A DNA stretch of 21,901 nt from Deltaproteobacteria bacterium (GTDB lineage: Bacteria; Myxococcota_A; JAADFL01), in assembly GCA_013152945.1 (NCBI GenBank), contig JAADFL010000109.1:1-21901 (forward strand), written 5' to 3'. Every line of letters starts with the position of its first letter. Position 1 is the first letter of the stretch. Below, one piece after another: positions 3,179 to 9,782 of this stretch. A model generated the notes under the pieces. It was not told the DNA's origin. It did not search any database and worked only from the letters and a program-made list of their open reading frames with translations. The translations under genes and the position numbers were made by a program.

Positions 3179-6100
3179 ATGAATTCGTCTTGGAAACCAA
3201 TTATCAGGTTTTTTTATCTCGTTGCCCTGGGGCTGTTGGTTTCAACATGCGGAGATACGCAAAAGAGCACTTCCAACAATAATACCATATGCTCTACAGA
3301 CAAGGACTGCGGCCCTGGAATGCATTGTGACGGCGGATTTTGTGCACCGGACAAGTCAGGGTGTAAAAACGACTTGGATTGCGATCCCTGGGAGGTATGC
3401 AACAGCGGCAAGTGCGTACTTCGAACCAATGAGCCGGATGCCAATGCTGATATGGAGCCGGAGCAATCCCGGGATGCCGATGCATCTGAAAACCACGGAG
3501 AAAACGAGGCACACCTCCCGCAAATCGATGTACAGCCTTCGAAAATCGAATTCGGAGCAACACGTATTGGAGTAATGGTAGAACGCCAGGTCTTTATCCA
3601 AAACCGGGGTAATGCCGACCTCCTGGTCCAGAGCATCCAGATCGAACAAGGTCAAAGCAATGTGTTCAACGTAAAATGGACAGGAAACCTGCCGTTGACC
3701 GTTGAGCCGGACAAGCCGATCAAGCTGGTCGTGTCCTATGTTCAAGATGATGCGAATCCTGATTTCGGACTGTTGCTCATCGGCAGCAACGACCCGGACC
3801 CGGAAGATGCCATTGTCAAGATTCCCATGTATTCCCAGTACAAGGGATCCAGCGACCTGGTGATTACCGGAACGCCGGCATCCATGGAAGATGACGTCAA
3901 CGAGGTGCCATTTGGAAGCCTTCCCGTTCACTCCACCGGGACAATCGAAATCTATCTAAAGAACGGCGGCGTTGGCGGTTCCATCCTTACCGTCGACGAG
4001 GTACGCCTAAGCCCGGCTTCCAGCGCTTTTACCCTGAAGGCCGATCCGAAGCCGCCCACATCGATGCTGGTTTTCGATTCTGAGTGCGCTCCCGGAAACA
4101 TGGCCGATGCCGAGGCCGATGCTGAAACAGAAACCGATGGAGAACCGGCGGATGAATGTGCCACGAAATTCGGAGCCACATACTCTTGTGTCAACGGACT
4201 GTGCATGGATGACAGCGGACTGGTACCCGACCTTGTCAAAATCCAGATAACTTTTTCTCCAAGTTCCGCCGGTGATTTCTTTACATATCTTTTGATTGGA
4301 AACAACAGTGACACAGACGGCGGCCAGACCGTGATGCTTCCCGTACACGGCAAGGGTGTAATAGGTGAGCTCGTGGCCGAACCGGATCCTCTTGATTTTG
4401 GGCTCAACTACACCGGGAAGAGCTATAAAAAGAACATCACCCTTTCCAACAAGGGTGGGGACGATTTGACCATTAGTGAAATTTCTCTCGAGCATGGGGA
4501 CAAGGGCTTCGATTTCAAACCCGGCGGTCCTATTCCCGCATTGCTCGGTCCGGGAGATGAATTGATAATTGAGATCACATATTCACCCTCATCGACCGGC
4601 CTGGTTGAAGACAACCTCGTAATAAGAAGCAATGCGCCCACCAACCCTGAACAACGCATACGCCTGCTCGGTAACGCCATCAATCCGCCCACGATAATGG
4701 TCACGCCCAAAACCGTGAACTTTGGAAACGTCGAGGCAGGTCGAAGAATACAGCAGGAATTGACAGTGCAAAATGTCGGTGGAGATCTGCTCCGAATCAG
4801 CAATATCTCACTGCGGGACAAAGATACAGGCTTGAGCTTTACTCCAGGTTCAATCCCGTCATTGTCTCCCAGTGAATCCTCATCCCTGTACATAACGGTC
4901 GAGGCATCCTCCCCTGGAATAGTGGACGATGAACTCCGCCTCGAGACCAATGATCCGGATTCACCCGTCTTTACAATACCGGTGACAGCGACAATAGAAA
5001 AGCCGGTCTTGACCGTAACACCATGGCCCATATTGGATTTCGGGGAAATCTACTACTATGACGGCAGCACCACATCGACCATTACGATTGAGAATTCAGG
5101 TGTTGGCAATCTAACCGTCACCCGCCTTGACCTCGCCACCGGGAGCAGCACGGATTTCAGCCTGGGTACCATGAAACTGGACGGCGTACCGGTAACGGTG
5201 CCGGTGGTTCTTCAGCCATCCGGTCATGTCCTGTCTATTGATGCCAGTTACAAACCTGGTGAAATAGGTCCAGACAACGGAGCTGTCGAAATCGATACCG
5301 ATATTTTCGGGTACGAACAACAGTTCCTCTCACTTTCCGGCCAGGGCCGGGACTGCCTTCCGGGTTTCGCCGACCTGGACAAGGGAAAACCCGGTTGCGA
5401 ATACCCATGCCCGGTAAACCCGCCTGTGGCCGAAATATGCGACCACAAGGACAACAACTGCAACGGCCTCGTGGATGAGGGAATCAATACCGACAACGAT
5501 CCGGAAAACTGCGGTGACTGTGGAGTCATCTGCAAATATGACGAGGCCTATGCAATGTGCGTGTCGGGAAATTGCAAGATTGGCTCCTGCAAAGATGGTT
5601 TTGCCGACGTGGACAAGGATGATTCCAACGGCTGCGAATACCCATGCCCGGTAAATCCACCGGGCTTCGAGGAATGCAACGGCGTGGACGATGATTGCAA
5701 CGGCCTCGTGGATGAAGGCGTGACTCCGCCTGCAGACCCTTGCGAGGTTACCAACAATTTCGGCACATGCACGGGAACCTGGGTCTGTAAAGAGCAGGAT
5801 GGCAGCACAGACTGGCAATGTGTGGCAAAAACACCGGGAGCCGAGATCTGCGATCTCAAGGACAATGATTGCGATGGAGAAATAGACGAAGACTTCAAGG
5901 ACGACAGGGGCGAATACCTGGACGATGAAAACTGCGGTGCCTGCGGCGTAACCTGCATCGGTGCAATTCCGCATGCGACCGCTGCTTGCGTAGTAAATGG
6001 CGATTCCGAGCGGTGCGAGGTCAAGGAGTGCGACTCCGGGTATTACAAGAAAGGTCCGTTGACCTGCATTGCTGTTACAAGCGATCTTTGTTCACCTTGC

Positions 6101-9100
6101 ACCCAGGACTCGGATTGTCCGACTCCCGGCGATCTCTGCCTGGACCTTGATTCCGCCAAATTTTGCGGCAGGGATTGTAGTGACGGCAACCTTCACGGCA
6201 CACAGGCAGGGGAATGCCCTGCAGGATTCACCTGTAAGGACCTTGGTGAAGACAAGCACCAGTGTATTCCATTGTCAGGCTCCTGCACCTGTCTGGCGGA
6301 AAATGATCAAGACCAGAGGGCATGCATCCAGTCGAATGAGTACGGCACCTGCTATGGCCAACAAACCTGCCACCCCGACTCCGGCTGGAGTTCATGCACA
6401 GCCCTGATTCCCTCTGTTGAAAAATGCGACGGCGTGGACAATGACTGTGACAACTACATCGATGATCTTACGGGCAGGGGTGAATCGTGTCCCATCACAA
6501 ACAGCATTGGCACGTGCTATGGCAAACTTGATTGCACTGCTTCGAGCGAAGACCTGGTCTGTGTTGGACAAACCCCGGCAATCGAGACATGCAACTACCT
6601 GGACGACGATTGTGATGGAAGCATAGACGAGGACTTTCCGGATCTCTATTCAAGCTGCTCGGCCGGTACCGGGGCATGCCAGAGGTACGGTTTCATGCAA
6701 TGCAAGCCCGACGGGTCCGGAACGGAATGTAATGCAAAGGCAGGTCTTGCCGGGACAGAAGTATGCAACAATATAGACGATGATTGCGATGGTGAAATAG
6801 ACGAAGACCAGTGGCCGCAAAAAGGCCAGCCCTGCAGCTTGGGACAAGGCGTGTGTGCCAGGCTGGGGGTCTATATTTGCGATCCGTCGGATCCATCCGG
6901 TCCTGTAATCTGCAATGCCATACCCGGGACAGCCGGAACAGAGACATGCAACGGCCTTGATGATGACTGCGACGGCGACGTGGACGAAGATTTAACAATT
7001 CCCGACTGCCCGTTGCAAGACGGTGTCTGCCTGGGCTCAAAGAAAACCTGCGGCGGCCTGGATGGTTGGCTCGAGTGCGGCCCGTCAGAGTACGGGGCCG
7101 ACTACGAACCCGTGGAACAATCCTGCGATGGCTTGGACAACGATTGCGACGGCCAAACCGACGAGGGCCTGTCGCCGGAGCTGTGTGCATTGACACAAGG
7201 AGTTTGTGCAGGTTCGACCAAGCGCTGTGGCGGCGCCTCGGGTTGGCTGGATTGCGATGCAAGCGACTATGGCAGCAATTATGAAACAGTGGAAACGACA
7301 TGTGATTACCTCGACAACGATTGTGACGGCATAATAGACGAAACCTGGCAAACAGGCGGTGTTTACAATCGTGATGACGCTTGCGGAAATTGCTACAATG
7401 ACTGCACTTCAATCTATGACAAGCCGAATGCATACGGCACATGTGATACATCAGGATCCTCACCCTCGTGTACCATGGTATGCTGCAAGGCGGGTGATGG
7501 ATCCAGGCCTTCATGTGACGGCATTTACGACTACTTCGACCTCAACGGAGTGCCGGATGATGGTTGCGAGTTCAGGCTGGACCCGAACGCAATTTATGTA
7601 TCCGCAAATGACGTAGACGCCGATGACGCCGCCGGCTGCGGCAGAGGACCGGCCCAGACAGGGGGTACGAACAGGCCTTGCCTTAGCATCGGGACCGGGC
7701 TTGCCGAAGCGGCCTCATCAGGAAGGTCCGCAGTGCTTGTTGCAGGTGGAGCTTACTACGAATCCATCACCCTGGTTGATGGCACGAGTCTGTACGGCGG
7801 TTATAACCCGGTCACATGGGGCCGGGACATCGCTGCAAATCTAACTTCGATATTCGGTGACTCGGCCGCATCGAACAAGAAAACTGTTACAGCGGAGAAC
7901 ATCACATCCTCCAATACAGTCCTGGATGGTTTCGTAATATATGGTGAGAACGCCACGCAGCCCGGTGGCAATAGTTATGCTATTTGGATAAAAGACTCGA
8001 ATTCCAATCTGAAGATAAACAACAACAAGGTATGGGCGGGTGACGGCGCCAAGGGAATCGATGGATCGGCCGGTACCAACGGCTCGAATGGTGGAAATGG
8101 AAACCCGGGCATCGACGCATACGAGCCATCTGCAGGATACAACTGCTACGAGAGTTGCACCGGCAATGGCGCCGAGAGCCCGGGAGGCAACGGTGGAACG
8201 AATACATGCACGGACAAGGGCGCCGTCAACGGTGGAGATGGCGGATTGGCCGACTGTCCTGATTACGACGAGGATACGAATGAATGCTCCGCTTGCCCGG
8301 ACAATTCAGATCAAACCCTTACAACGACCGGACTGCCGGGAAGTAACGGCGGAGGAGATGGAGGACAGGGAGGTTGCGACGGCTTGATGGACTATTCATG
8401 TACAAGTGCATGTTCGTGCATTATGCCTGATCCCGCGGTTTGCAGCCAGGGACTGACAGCTAGTACAGGTGCTAATGGCGCCAATGGAACCAATGGAGCA
8501 GGAGGCACAGGCTGCCCTGACCAGACCGGATCAGTTGTTTCAGGGGAATGGATCGGTGGTTCCGGAACAAATGGATCAGACGGTTCCTCCGGCCTGGGCG
8601 GCGGAGGAGGAGGCGCTGGTGGTGGAGTGGAGACATATGACAGCACTTGGTGTTCAAATGACGGCGGCAGCGACATAGGAGGGAGCGGAGGCGGAGGCGG
8701 CGCTGGTGGATGCAGGGGAACCGGCGGGTCTGCCGGAGCAGCAGGAGGCGGCTCCTTTGCCCTGTTCGTGGTTTTTTCGAGCGACCCTTTAGGAAATATT
8801 CCGCAAATATCAGGTAACACGATGCACCGAACCAACGGCGGCAACGGGGGGGACGGAGGCCCGGGAGGAACGGGGGGCAGTGGAGGCCATGGCGGTAATG
8901 GCGGCGCAGGAGGGATCAACGGTACCAGTGTATGGTGCGCTGCTGCAGGGGCAAAGGGAGGCGAAGGCGGTGACGGTGGTCACGGCGGCGGTGGCGGAGG
9001 CGGATGCGGCGGAGTGTCTTTTGGAATATTCTCATCCGGGCAAGGCGCCACCGACATCAGCGCCTGGAAGACACAAAATTCCTTCCAATCAGATGGCGTA

Positions 9101-9193
9101 TCAGGCTCCGGCGGACATGGAGGGGGTAGTGGAGCAGGAGGATTTTCAGGCACCGACGGCATTGACGGCGCCGAGGGAGACACGAATTTCTAA
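3179..9193 (+). CDS. Giant multi-domain lipoprotein: ASH, MopE, beta-helix-like and Gly-rich regions
   Basis: 2004 residues. Residues 1-24 form a lipoprotein signal with near-canonical lipobox VSTC (Cys24; Thr at -1 is unusual). Residues 38-81 are a Cys-rich module, followed by an acidic linker. About 116-718 carry five choice-of-anchor D (ASH/HYDIN-like) beta-sandwich domains, each with an FG motif and an N-x-G-G/N-x-G-x-x-x-L-x-V turn. The second contains an inserted acidic/Cys segment near residues 302-347. Nine MopE-type metal-binding motifs occur between about 754 and 1390. About 1472-1620 resemble a DUF1565/parallel beta-helix N-terminus (IYVSAND, LYGGY, LDGFVI). Residues 1621-2004 are rich in GGNGG/GGSGG. 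The start follows GGAGGAG at 3167-3173. It is presumably anchored in the outer membrane and may act in adhesion or metal binding; both are inferred. It lies in tandem with a related MopE protein and 43 bases before the rpsO promoter. Confidence 0.92.
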   Translation: MNSSWKPIIRFFYLVALGLLVSTCGDTQKSTSNNNTICSTDKDCGPGMHCDGGFCAPDKSGCKNDLDCDPWEVCNSGKCVLRTNEPDANADMEPEQSRDADASENHGENEAHLPQIDVQPSKIEFGATRIGVMVERQVFIQNRGNADLLVQSIQIEQGQSNVFNVKWTGNLPLTVEPDKPIKLVVSYVQDDANPDFGLLLIGSNDPDPEDAIVKIPMYSQYKGSSDLVITGTPASMEDDVNEVPFGSLPVHSTGTIEIYLKNGGVGGSILTVDEVRLSPASSAFTLKADPKPPTSMLVFDSECAPGNMADAEADAETETDGEPADECATKFGATYSCVNGLCMDDSGLVPDLVKIQITFSPSSAGDFFTYLLIGNNSDTDGGQTVMLPVHGKGVIGELVAEPDPLDFGLNYTGKSYKKNITLSNKGGDDLTISEISLEHGDKGFDFKPGGPIPALLGPGDELIIEITYSPSSTGLVEDNLVIRSNAPTNPEQRIRLLGNAINPPTIMVTPKTVNFGNVEAGRRIQQELTVQNVGGDLLRISNISLRDKDTGLSFTPGSIPSLSPSESSSLYITVEASSPGIVDDELRLETNDPDSPVFTIPVTATIEKPVLTVTPWPILDFGEIYYYDGSTTSTITIENSGVGNLTVTRLDLATGSSTDFSLGTMKLDGVPVTVPVVLQPSGHVLSIDASYKPGEIGPDNGAVEIDTDIFGYEQQFLSLSGQGRDCLPGFADLDKGKPGCEYPCPVNPPVAEICDHKDNNCNGLVDEGINTDNDPENCGDCGVICKYDEAYAMCVSGNCKIGSCKDGFADVDKDDSNGCEYPCPVNPPGFEECNGVDDDCNGLVDEGVTPPADPCEVTNNFGTCTGTWVCKEQDGSTDWQCVAKTPGAEICDLKDNDCDGEIDEDFKDDRGEYLDDENCGACGVTCIGAIPHATAACVVNGDSERCEVKECDSGYYKKGPLTCIAVTSDLCSPCTQDSDCPTPGDLCLDLDSAKFCGRDCSDGNLHGTQAGECPAGFTCKDLGEDKHQCIPLSGSCTCLAENDQDQRACIQSNEYGTCYGQQTCHPDSGWSSCTALIPSVEKCDGVDNDCDNYIDDLTGRGESCPITNSIGTCYGKLDCTASSEDLVCVGQTPAIETCNYLDDDCDGSIDEDFPDLYSSCSAGTGACQRYGFMQCKPDGSGTECNAKAGLAGTEVCNNIDDDCDGEIDEDQWPQKGQPCSLGQGVCARLGVYICDPSDPSGPVICNAIPGTAGTETCNGLDDDCDGDVDEDLTIPDCPLQDGVCLGSKKTCGGLDGWLECGPSEYGADYEPVEQSCDGLDNDCDGQTDEGLSPELCALTQGVCAGSTKRCGGASGWLDCDASDYGSNYETVETTCDYLDNDCDGIIDETWQTGGVYNRDDACGNCYNDCTSIYDKPNAYGTCDTSGSSPSCTMVCCKAGDGSRPSCDGIYDYFDLNGVPDDGCEFRLDPNAIYVSANDVDADDAAGCGRGPAQTGGTNRPCLSIGTGLAEAASSGRSAVLVAGGAYYESITLVDGTSLYGGYNPVTWGRDIAANLTSIFGDSAASNKKTVTAENITSSNTVLDGFVIYGENATQPGGNSYAIWIKDSNSNLKINNNKVWAGDGAKGIDGSAGTNGSNGGNGNPGIDAYEPSAGYNCYESCTGNGAESPGGNGGTNTCTDKGAVNGGDGGLADCPDYDEDTNECSACPDNSDQTLTTTGLPGSNGGGDGGQGGCDGLMDYSCTSACSCIMPDPAVCSQGLTASTGANGANGTNGAGGTGCPDQTGSVVSGEWIGGSGTNGSDGSSGLGGGGGGAGGGVETYDSTWCSNDGGSDIGGSGGGGGAGGCRGTGGSAGAAGGGSFALFVVFSSDPLGNIPQISGNTMHRTNGGNGGDGGPGGTGGSGGHGGNGGAGGINGTSVWCAAAGAKGGEGGDGGHGGGGGGGCGGVSFGIFSSGQGATDISAWKTQNSFQSDGVSGSGGHGGGSGAGGFSGTDGIDGAEGDTNF
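5438..7350 (+). repeat. Array of nine MopE-type putative metal-binding motifs
   Basis: Within the giant lipoprotein, nine copies of C-(D/N)-x-x-D-(D/N)-(D/N)-C-(D/N)-x-x-x-D-(D/E) recur at irregular 40-110 residue spacing, the first near residue 754 and the last near 1375. The intervening segments carry CxxGxC-like modules with a conserved Trp or Tyr before a Cys. The motif matches the Pfam putative metal-binding family named after Methylococcus MopE. Whether these copies bind copper or calcium cannot be read from the sequence. Confidence 0.85.
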
Positions 9194-9236
9194 AGCTGTT
9201 GCCGTTGAGAATTATTATTGGGGACGAAGGTATTCT

Positions 9237-9265
9237 TTGACAACAGCCGCGAACCAGAGTATAAG
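9237..9265 (+). promoter_or_regulatory. Near-consensus sigma-70 promoter for rpsO
   Basis: TTGACA at 9237-9242, a 17-base spacer, then TATAAG at 9260-9265. Expected transcription start is near 9272, giving a leader of about 47 bases. The promoter begins 43 bases after the stop of the upstream lipoprotein gene, so the rpsO operon has its own strong initiation site. Confidence 0.85.
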
Positions 9266-9277
9266 CAATTCCCTACC

Positions 9278-9328
9278 CTGCAGGCCGGGCGCGCTTGCAG
9301 TGGACATGGAGGTGTGAAATGGCGCTCG
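9278..9328 (+). promoter_or_regulatory. Candidate S15 autoregulatory leader (hairpin plus pseudoknot)
   Basis: CTGCAGGC (9278-9285) pairs with GCTTGCAG (9293-9300) as an 8-bp stem with one G-U pair next to a G-C pair. All seven loop bases, CGGGCGC (9286-9292), are complementary to GCGCTCG (9322-9328), codons 2-4 of rpsO, with one G-U pair. The Shine-Dalgarno (9308-9312) and ATG (9319) lie in the connecting loop. This resembles the Escherichia coli rpsO pseudoknot in which S15 traps the 30S subunit. With no unpaired bases between the two stems, one or two pairs probably open in the real fold. Confidence 0.5.
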
Positions 9329-9588
9329 AAACACAGGCGAAAAAAGAAATTATCGAAAAGTTCAAGACCCACGAAAAGGACACCGGCTCCCCCGAGGTCC
9401 AGATTGCTCTGCTCACAGAGAGAATCAAGTACCTGACCGAGCACTTCAAGGTACACAAAAAGGACCATCATTCCAGGCGGGGCCTGCTGAAAATGGTAGG
9501 ACTTAGGAGAAGGCTCCTGGATTACCTTAAACGAAAGAACGTGGAACGTTACAGGAAGATCATCAAAGAACTCGGCATAAGGAAATAA
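9319..9588 (+). CDS. rpsO: 30S ribosomal protein S15
   Basis: 89 residues, the usual S15 length. S15 binds 16S rRNA helices 20-22 early in platform assembly of the 30S subunit. Recognisable are the N-terminal MALETQ...KKEIIEKF helix, the conserved [13 protein letters not shown] motif (about residues 21-33), the H[10 protein letters not shown] segment (about 45-55), and the basic C-terminal [10 protein letters not shown]. The ATG at 9319 was chosen because GGAGG sits 6 bases upstream and it gives the standard N-terminus; an upstream in-frame ATG at 9295 would add eight non-conserved residues and lies within the leader hairpin. First gene of rpsO-pnp-dut, with a near-consensus promoter and a leader structure that suggests feedback control by S15. 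Confidence 0.98.
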
Positions 9589-9598
9589 CAGGGCGCAA

Positions 9599-9628
9599 AA
9601 TTGATGCGGCAAAAGGGCCGCGTCGATT
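9599..9628 (+). other. 12-bp RNA hairpin between rpsO and pnp
   Basis: The arm 9599-9610 pairs along its whole length with 9617-9628 around a 6-base loop, including two G-U pairs. No T-tract follows, so it is not a typical terminator. In enterobacteria the rpsO-pnp gap carries a hairpin cut by RNase III for PNPase autoregulation, and this stem occupies the same place. The processing role is inferred from position only. Confidence 0.5.
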
Positions 9629-9692
9629 GTAGTGCCATGACAGGGCTGATAACCGGTTTGCAAAAGCCTGATGCGGCTTAGTCTTTCAGCAG

Positions 9693-9717
9693 TGCTCTCG
9701 AATTAATATCGAGGGTA
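9693..9717 (+). other. Second rpsO-pnp intergenic hairpin
   Basis: CTCTCGA (9695-9701) and TCGAGGG (9709-9715) pair with one T-G wobble around an AT-only 7-base loop, and two further pairs extend the stem outward (G-U, then T-A). It ends 65 bases before the pnp ATG. No T-tract follows. It may be part of the pnp leader or a processing signal. Confidence 0.4.
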
Positions 9718-9782
9718 GCGTTGTGAGACTAGACCGCCTACTGCATTTTGGTTGAGCCCATTTGTTACAAGGAGATTTTACA

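Follow-up and report, generated by a model that had tools for sequence, protein, structure and literature searches.

Background

The leader regions of rpsO, the gene encoding ribosomal protein S15, are a textbook case of unrelated RNAs that have evolved to answer one protein. The Escherichia coli operator is a pseudoknot: bases A-42 and A-40 are paired to the coding sequence (PMC3858243), loop 1 contains A-46, and the connecting loop has a reported minimum length of 9 nt (PMC8470358). Two contacts are essential to its recognition: with His42, Asp49 and Ser52, S15 reads a stem-1 U-G/C-G motif, and with Arg58 the loop-1 A-46 (PMC8470358). A second, E. coli-like case of control comes from a distant phylum, in which the rpsO 5′UTRs of Mycobacterium smegmatis and M. 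tuberculosis also contain a pseudoknot, judged to be possibly independent of that of E. coli and located upstream of the start codon (PMC8470358). The S15 leaders of Geobacillus and Thermus are three-way junctions and those of Rhizobium, Chlamydia, Flavobacteria and archaea adopt other folds; all lie 5′ of rpsO as proposed or proven S15 targets, and pairing of a hairpin loop to codons 2-4 has been described for none of them (PMC4137082, PMC4684408, PMC7247131). Tests of rpsO leaders have usually revealed feedback by S15 (PMC10931766), and RNAs responsive to S15 are common in sequence space and arise easily (PMC5100602).

Here we analyse an rpsO leader from a different phylum which, judging from its sequence, we lean towards reading as a candidate translational operator built on the E. 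coli plan, in which S15 would stabilise a pseudoknot and thereby block its own translation.

Genomic context and promoter of rpsO

The window, by which we mean the whole 21,901-nt stretch of DNA analysed, constitutes an entire contig (C109) of a 4.84-Mb genome assembled in 218 contigs, and the promoter, the leader elements and rpsO lie on its forward strand. rpsO (9319-9588) is a normal S15 gene encoding a protein of 89 amino acids (TIGR00952, 139.4 bits against a cut-off of 63.65) with pnp downstream, from 9783. The 125-nt gap 5′ of rpsO contains a predicted sigma70-type promoter at 9237-9265, comprising TTGACA (9237-9242), 17 nt and TATAAG (9260-9265). This promoter is near-consensus, matching at 11 of 12 bases, a result that none of 2,000 shuffled versions of the intergenic region equalled; a stock promoter scanner missed it because it demands a T at position 6 of the -10 element. 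A similar promoter is found close 5′ of many related rpsO genes. Transcription from the predicted promoter would probably start near 9272 (range 9268-9275), and the resulting 5′UTR of about 46 nt would therefore consist of five or six bases, the hairpin described below, a Shine-Dalgarno sequence and little else.

Two large secreted-looking proteins are encoded at 28-2967 and 3179-9193, with rpsO directly 3′ of the second. The first, of 979 amino acids, contains acidic repeats of the DxDxDG type, while the second, of 2004 amino acids, contains choice-of-anchor D domains (NF012200), repeated CDGxDNDCDGxxDE motifs and a Gly-rich end. A 7-bp inverted repeat (GCTGTTG/CAACAGC) occupies 9195-9201 and 9241-9247, its second arm overlapping the rpsO -35 hexamer. 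Two long hairpins are predicted in the rpsO-pnp gap at 9589-9782 (-84 kcal/mol, z -6.0), which matched no Rfam family. The gap is also strongly structured in relatives, with a median z of -3.7 among 53 members of the phylum and values down to -11 in Geobacteraceae, and it probably forms a stem in the pnp leader that, like its E. coli counterpart, is cleaved by RNase III.

A potential pseudoknot between the leader hairpin and the first codons

In the rpsO leader, CTGCAGGC (9278-9285) can pair with GCTTGCAG (9293-9300) to give a stem of 8 bp, S1, in which a single G.U pair (9283.9295) is stacked on G9284-C9294. Pair probabilities for the 5′ strand CUGCAGGC and the 3′ strand GCUUGCAG of S1 range from 0.7 to 1.0, and nested minimum-energy folds suggest a possible extension of the stem at 9276-9303 (C9276-G9303 and C9277-G9302, with U9301 bulged). 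The loop enclosed by S1, CGGGCGC (9286-9292), is complementary over 7 bp, including one G.U, to GCGCUCG (9322-9328), which occupies +4 to +10 of rpsO and extends from codon 2 to the first base of codon 4; pairing between the two would form a second stem, S2. The connecting loop of 21 nt (9301-9321) holds both the Shine-Dalgarno sequence GGAGGU (9308-9313) and the start codon (ATG at 9319). A first-pass annotation of this DNA had described these pairs and their coordinates and had placed the Shine-Dalgarno and start codon in the connecting loop; when checked base by base every pair was present and both elements lay where it had put them.

The loop at 9286-9292 has no linker on either side, so that all 15 pairs may not coexist. 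The same annotation had cautioned that the abutting stems might not form in full, which is right but mild: dropping C9286-G9328 leaves S2 with 6 bp and C9286 as a probably unpaired 1-nt loop 1, with the two stems able to stack end to end. The stacking energies sum to -28.6 kcal/mol (S1 -15.8, S2 -12.8). Treated as a nested fold, the whole leader is not unusually stable (z +0.86), and nested folds that omit S2 are about equally stable. With Dirks-Pierce style constants, a rough use that ranks two leaders and does not predict occupancy, the pseudoknot came to -19.0 kcal/mol against -21.9 for the best nested fold, a gap of 2.9 kcal/mol, whereas for E. coli these crude energies were -9.3 and -16.2, a gap of 6.9 kcal/mol; by that yardstick, formation of the pseudoknot would be at least as plausible here as in E. 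coli.

Comparison with shuffled sequences and with other leaders of the genome

We scored the pseudoknot potential under two definitions, one loose and one strict. The strict one followed E. coli and was fixed ahead of any background scoring; it required pairing within -3 to +14, a loop 1 of 0-2 nt and 0-1 nt separating the stems. The background comprised the leaders of 489 other genes, drawn from 60 contigs of this genome. The loose score of -28.6 was equalled by 0.5% of 4,000 dinucleotide shuffles. The strict score, in the E. coli register, was -31.0, a value that 4 of 10,000 shuffles attained; the 489 other leaders all fell short of it, the best scoring -19.6. The potential that had first been noticed by eye is thus real and non-random.

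The exceptional part is the combination of the hairpin with the match of its loop to the codons. S1 alone is matched in strength in 4 of the 489 leaders, and the loop-codon match alone is mildly unusual: for this loop, 7% of synonymous recodings and 3 of 128 other gene starts offer complementarity over 7 bp, and 19 of the 128 offer at least 6 bp. Such frequencies are what one would cite for a chance origin, that is a GC-rich hairpin with a loop that matches the Ala-Leu-Glu codons by coincidence, and that reading also gains from the absence of a conserved structure in any of the relatives sampled. The feature was, moreover, picked by eye from a 21.9-kb window, because of which the effective significance is somewhat weaker than 0.0004. 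Chance has nevertheless to account for the outcome of the joint strict test (0.0004, and 0 of 489 leaders) in the very gene known for such an architecture, and we regard it as distinctly unlikely.

The hairpin might alternatively be a DNA dyad serving as a transcription-factor operator at the transcript start, and CTGCARGC-N7-GCYTGCAG is indeed near-palindromic in DNA and located just 3′ of the promoter. Its sole imperfection, however, is the G.U pair, which is fine in RNA but a mismatch in DNA. The 4.84-Mb assembly contains no second perfect copy, which argues against a general transcription-factor site, and only one copy with 1 mismatch, against two hits for a reversed control. Such an operator would also leave the codon complementarity unexplained, and we consider it highly improbable.

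Comparison with the E. coli operator

Run through the same code as a positive control, rpsO of E. coli MG1655 yielded the stem CGCUGA/UCGGCG, the loop AUUAGAGA and the pairing of UUAGAGA with UCUCUAA at +4 to +10, in agreement with the published operator (PMC3858243, PMC8470358). Both leaders have an H-type topology in which the hairpin loop pairs with +4 to +10 of rpsO, both allow a 1-nt loop 1 with 0 nt between the stacked stems, and in both a G-U pair is the third from the junction while the Shine-Dalgarno and AUG lie inside the connecting loop. The defining arrangement of the E. coli pseudoknot, a hairpin loop paired with the first codons and a ribosome binding site within the connecting loop, is therefore present here as a potential, and among 174 rpsO leaders scanned, including that of E. 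coli, this leader scored highest. The mycobacterial knot lies upstream of the start codon (PMC8470358), in contrast to the one described here, which as in E. coli embraces the Shine-Dalgarno, the AUG and codons 2-4.

The two leaders differ in the length of S1 (8 bp here, 6 in E. coli) and of the connecting loop, whose 21 nt compare with 35 nt in E. coli and exceed the reported minimum. They differ too in loop 1, which is a C (C9286) or absent here but contains the required A-46 in E. coli, and in the G-U/G-C step, where the G-C is nearer the junction here and the G-U is nearer in E. coli. The host belongs to a different phylum from the bearers of the gammaproteobacterial operator (RF00114).

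Determinants of S15 recognition

The S15 protein retains T22, G23, Q28, H42, D49 and S52 as in E. coli, although the presence of H42, D49 and S52 carries little weight because these residues are nearly invariant across S15 proteins generally. The first-pass annotation had taken the G-U pair next to a G-C pair as support for an S15 site. This argument failed, since such a step, in one or other polarity, turns up in 54% of shuffled hairpins; the polarity in S1 is, moreover, opposite to that of E. coli, and the stem-1 U-G/C-G motif in the orientation found in E. coli and rRNA is absent. The 16S rRNA of this genome is assembled only at 903-1520, a stretch that lies outside the S15 binding site.

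Nor does the leader contain a loop-1 A to be read by Arg58: there is either no loop 1 or one consisting of C9286, and S15 shares with 148 of 173 relatives a Lys at position 58 (K58), where E. coli has Arg. Any second contact of S15 must therefore differ from that in E. coli. By analogy these departures need not be fatal to control by S15, as residue 58 is not Arg in mycobacteria either and M. smegmatis S15, with Leu58, is nonetheless controlled through a pseudoknot (PMC8470358), and as S15-responsive RNAs are frequent (PMC5100602).

The weakness of these S15-specific features (reversed motif, no loop-1 A, K58) would be expected if the hairpin or pseudoknot acted without S15 feedback, tuning ribosome loading or shielding the mRNA at its 5′ end against decay of the RNase E type. 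The stem starts only a few nt into the predicted transcript and has considerable strength of its own, its stacking energy of -15.8 kcal/mol having few equals in the genome (4 of 489), both of which suit such a role. What a role of this kind leaves unexplained is the loop-codon complementarity in the E. coli register (4 of 10,000 shuffles). It also sits uneasily with the feedback usually observed in tested rpsO leaders (PMC10931766) and with the ease with which S15-responsive RNAs arise (PMC5100602), and we think it unlikely, if a more serious contender than chance.

rpsO leaders of related genomes

We compared 172 rpsO leaders, including that of the window, taken from 57 genomes of the phylum, further members of the phylum and 80 named genomes. 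The genome is the sole member of its class among those compared: its nearest PNPase is 59% identical among 56 sampled relatives, and the nearest S15 proteins in the phylum are 80% identical. None of the 171 other rpsO leaders contained a recognisable conserved counterpart of the structure, and when 377 genomes of the phylum were searched at the DNA level for homologs of the leader, the matches were all short and scattered. Under the loose definition, pseudoknot scores across the 172 leaders showed no enrichment over shuffles; under the strict definition there was a slight excess, with 30 of 174 leaders against 21.7 expected, although these do not share the same structure. The absence of the element from distant rpsO leaders indicates that it is not phylum-wide and says nothing on sister species.

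The first-pass annotation had also proposed a covariance search against known S15 leader families. The S15 leader family RF00114 gave no match, neither at the gathering threshold nor at E values up to 10, while the E. coli control scored 117.6 bits, and nothing relevant emerged when the window and the leader were scanned against Rfam. We do not file the leader as a member of RF00114, because of this lack of a match and because two of the E. coli sequence determinants are missing or reversed.

Other leaders in the collection have features of their own. Those of one family (f9: L006, L009, L012, L017, L129, L156, L162, L164, L167, L168 and L192) have a strong promoter in common and retain, across six genera, a block close to RGGNCGNNGTGGAGG immediately 5′ of the ATG, which could be another S15 or ribosome-loading element. 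A candidate pseudoknot in these 11 leaders (CCGG...AAGUGG...CCGG-AUG-CCACUU) was rejected, as the changes were not compensatory. Two Desulfarculaceae-like leaders (L075 and L110) have a common GGGCC/GGCCC hairpin at about -41 to -24 of rpsO, and in L075 the hairpin loop GACCAC pairs over 6 bp with the start GUGGUU; this hairpin is possibly a separate rpsO start-site pseudoknot.

A candidate S15 operator and its proposed mechanism

If the rpsO leader is a translational operator on the E. coli plan, free S15 in excess of its 16S rRNA sites would bind and stabilise the leader pseudoknot. The stabilised knot would either keep the start codon from engaging the P site (entrapment) or prevent the ribosome from loading (competition). 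When S15 is scarce, the ribosome would melt the weaker pairing and translate rpsO.

The lack of a match to RF00114 and the 171 rpsO leaders without an equivalent favour convergence over homology, and an origin separate from that of the gammaproteobacterial operator is the most likely one. The earlier suggestion that this lineage has its own or a convergent version of the S15 operator is supported in part, as regards the plan, which is that of E. coli, and not as regards the S15-motif argument. In the open-access literature we found no knot embracing the Shine-Dalgarno, AUG and codons 2-4 outside gammaproteobacteria (PMC4137082, PMC4684408, PMC7247131, PMC8470358, PMC10931766). We also raise, more tentatively and as something we are not yet inclined to bet on, the fuller proposal that in a class-level lineage an rpsO entrapment pseudoknot evolved independently, in the register used by E. 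coli, and that S15 recognises it by way of an inverted G-U/G-C step with no adenine in loop 1. It would be the third S15 operator of the pseudoknot type and, outside gammaproteobacteria, the first in which codons 2-4 are sequestered. Were this true, evolution in a distant phylum would have returned to the E. coli solution, even to hiding the same codons, and the leader would provide a clean test of what is essential to entrapment, namely the topology, and what is dispensable, namely the loop-1 adenine, the polarity of the motif and Arg58.
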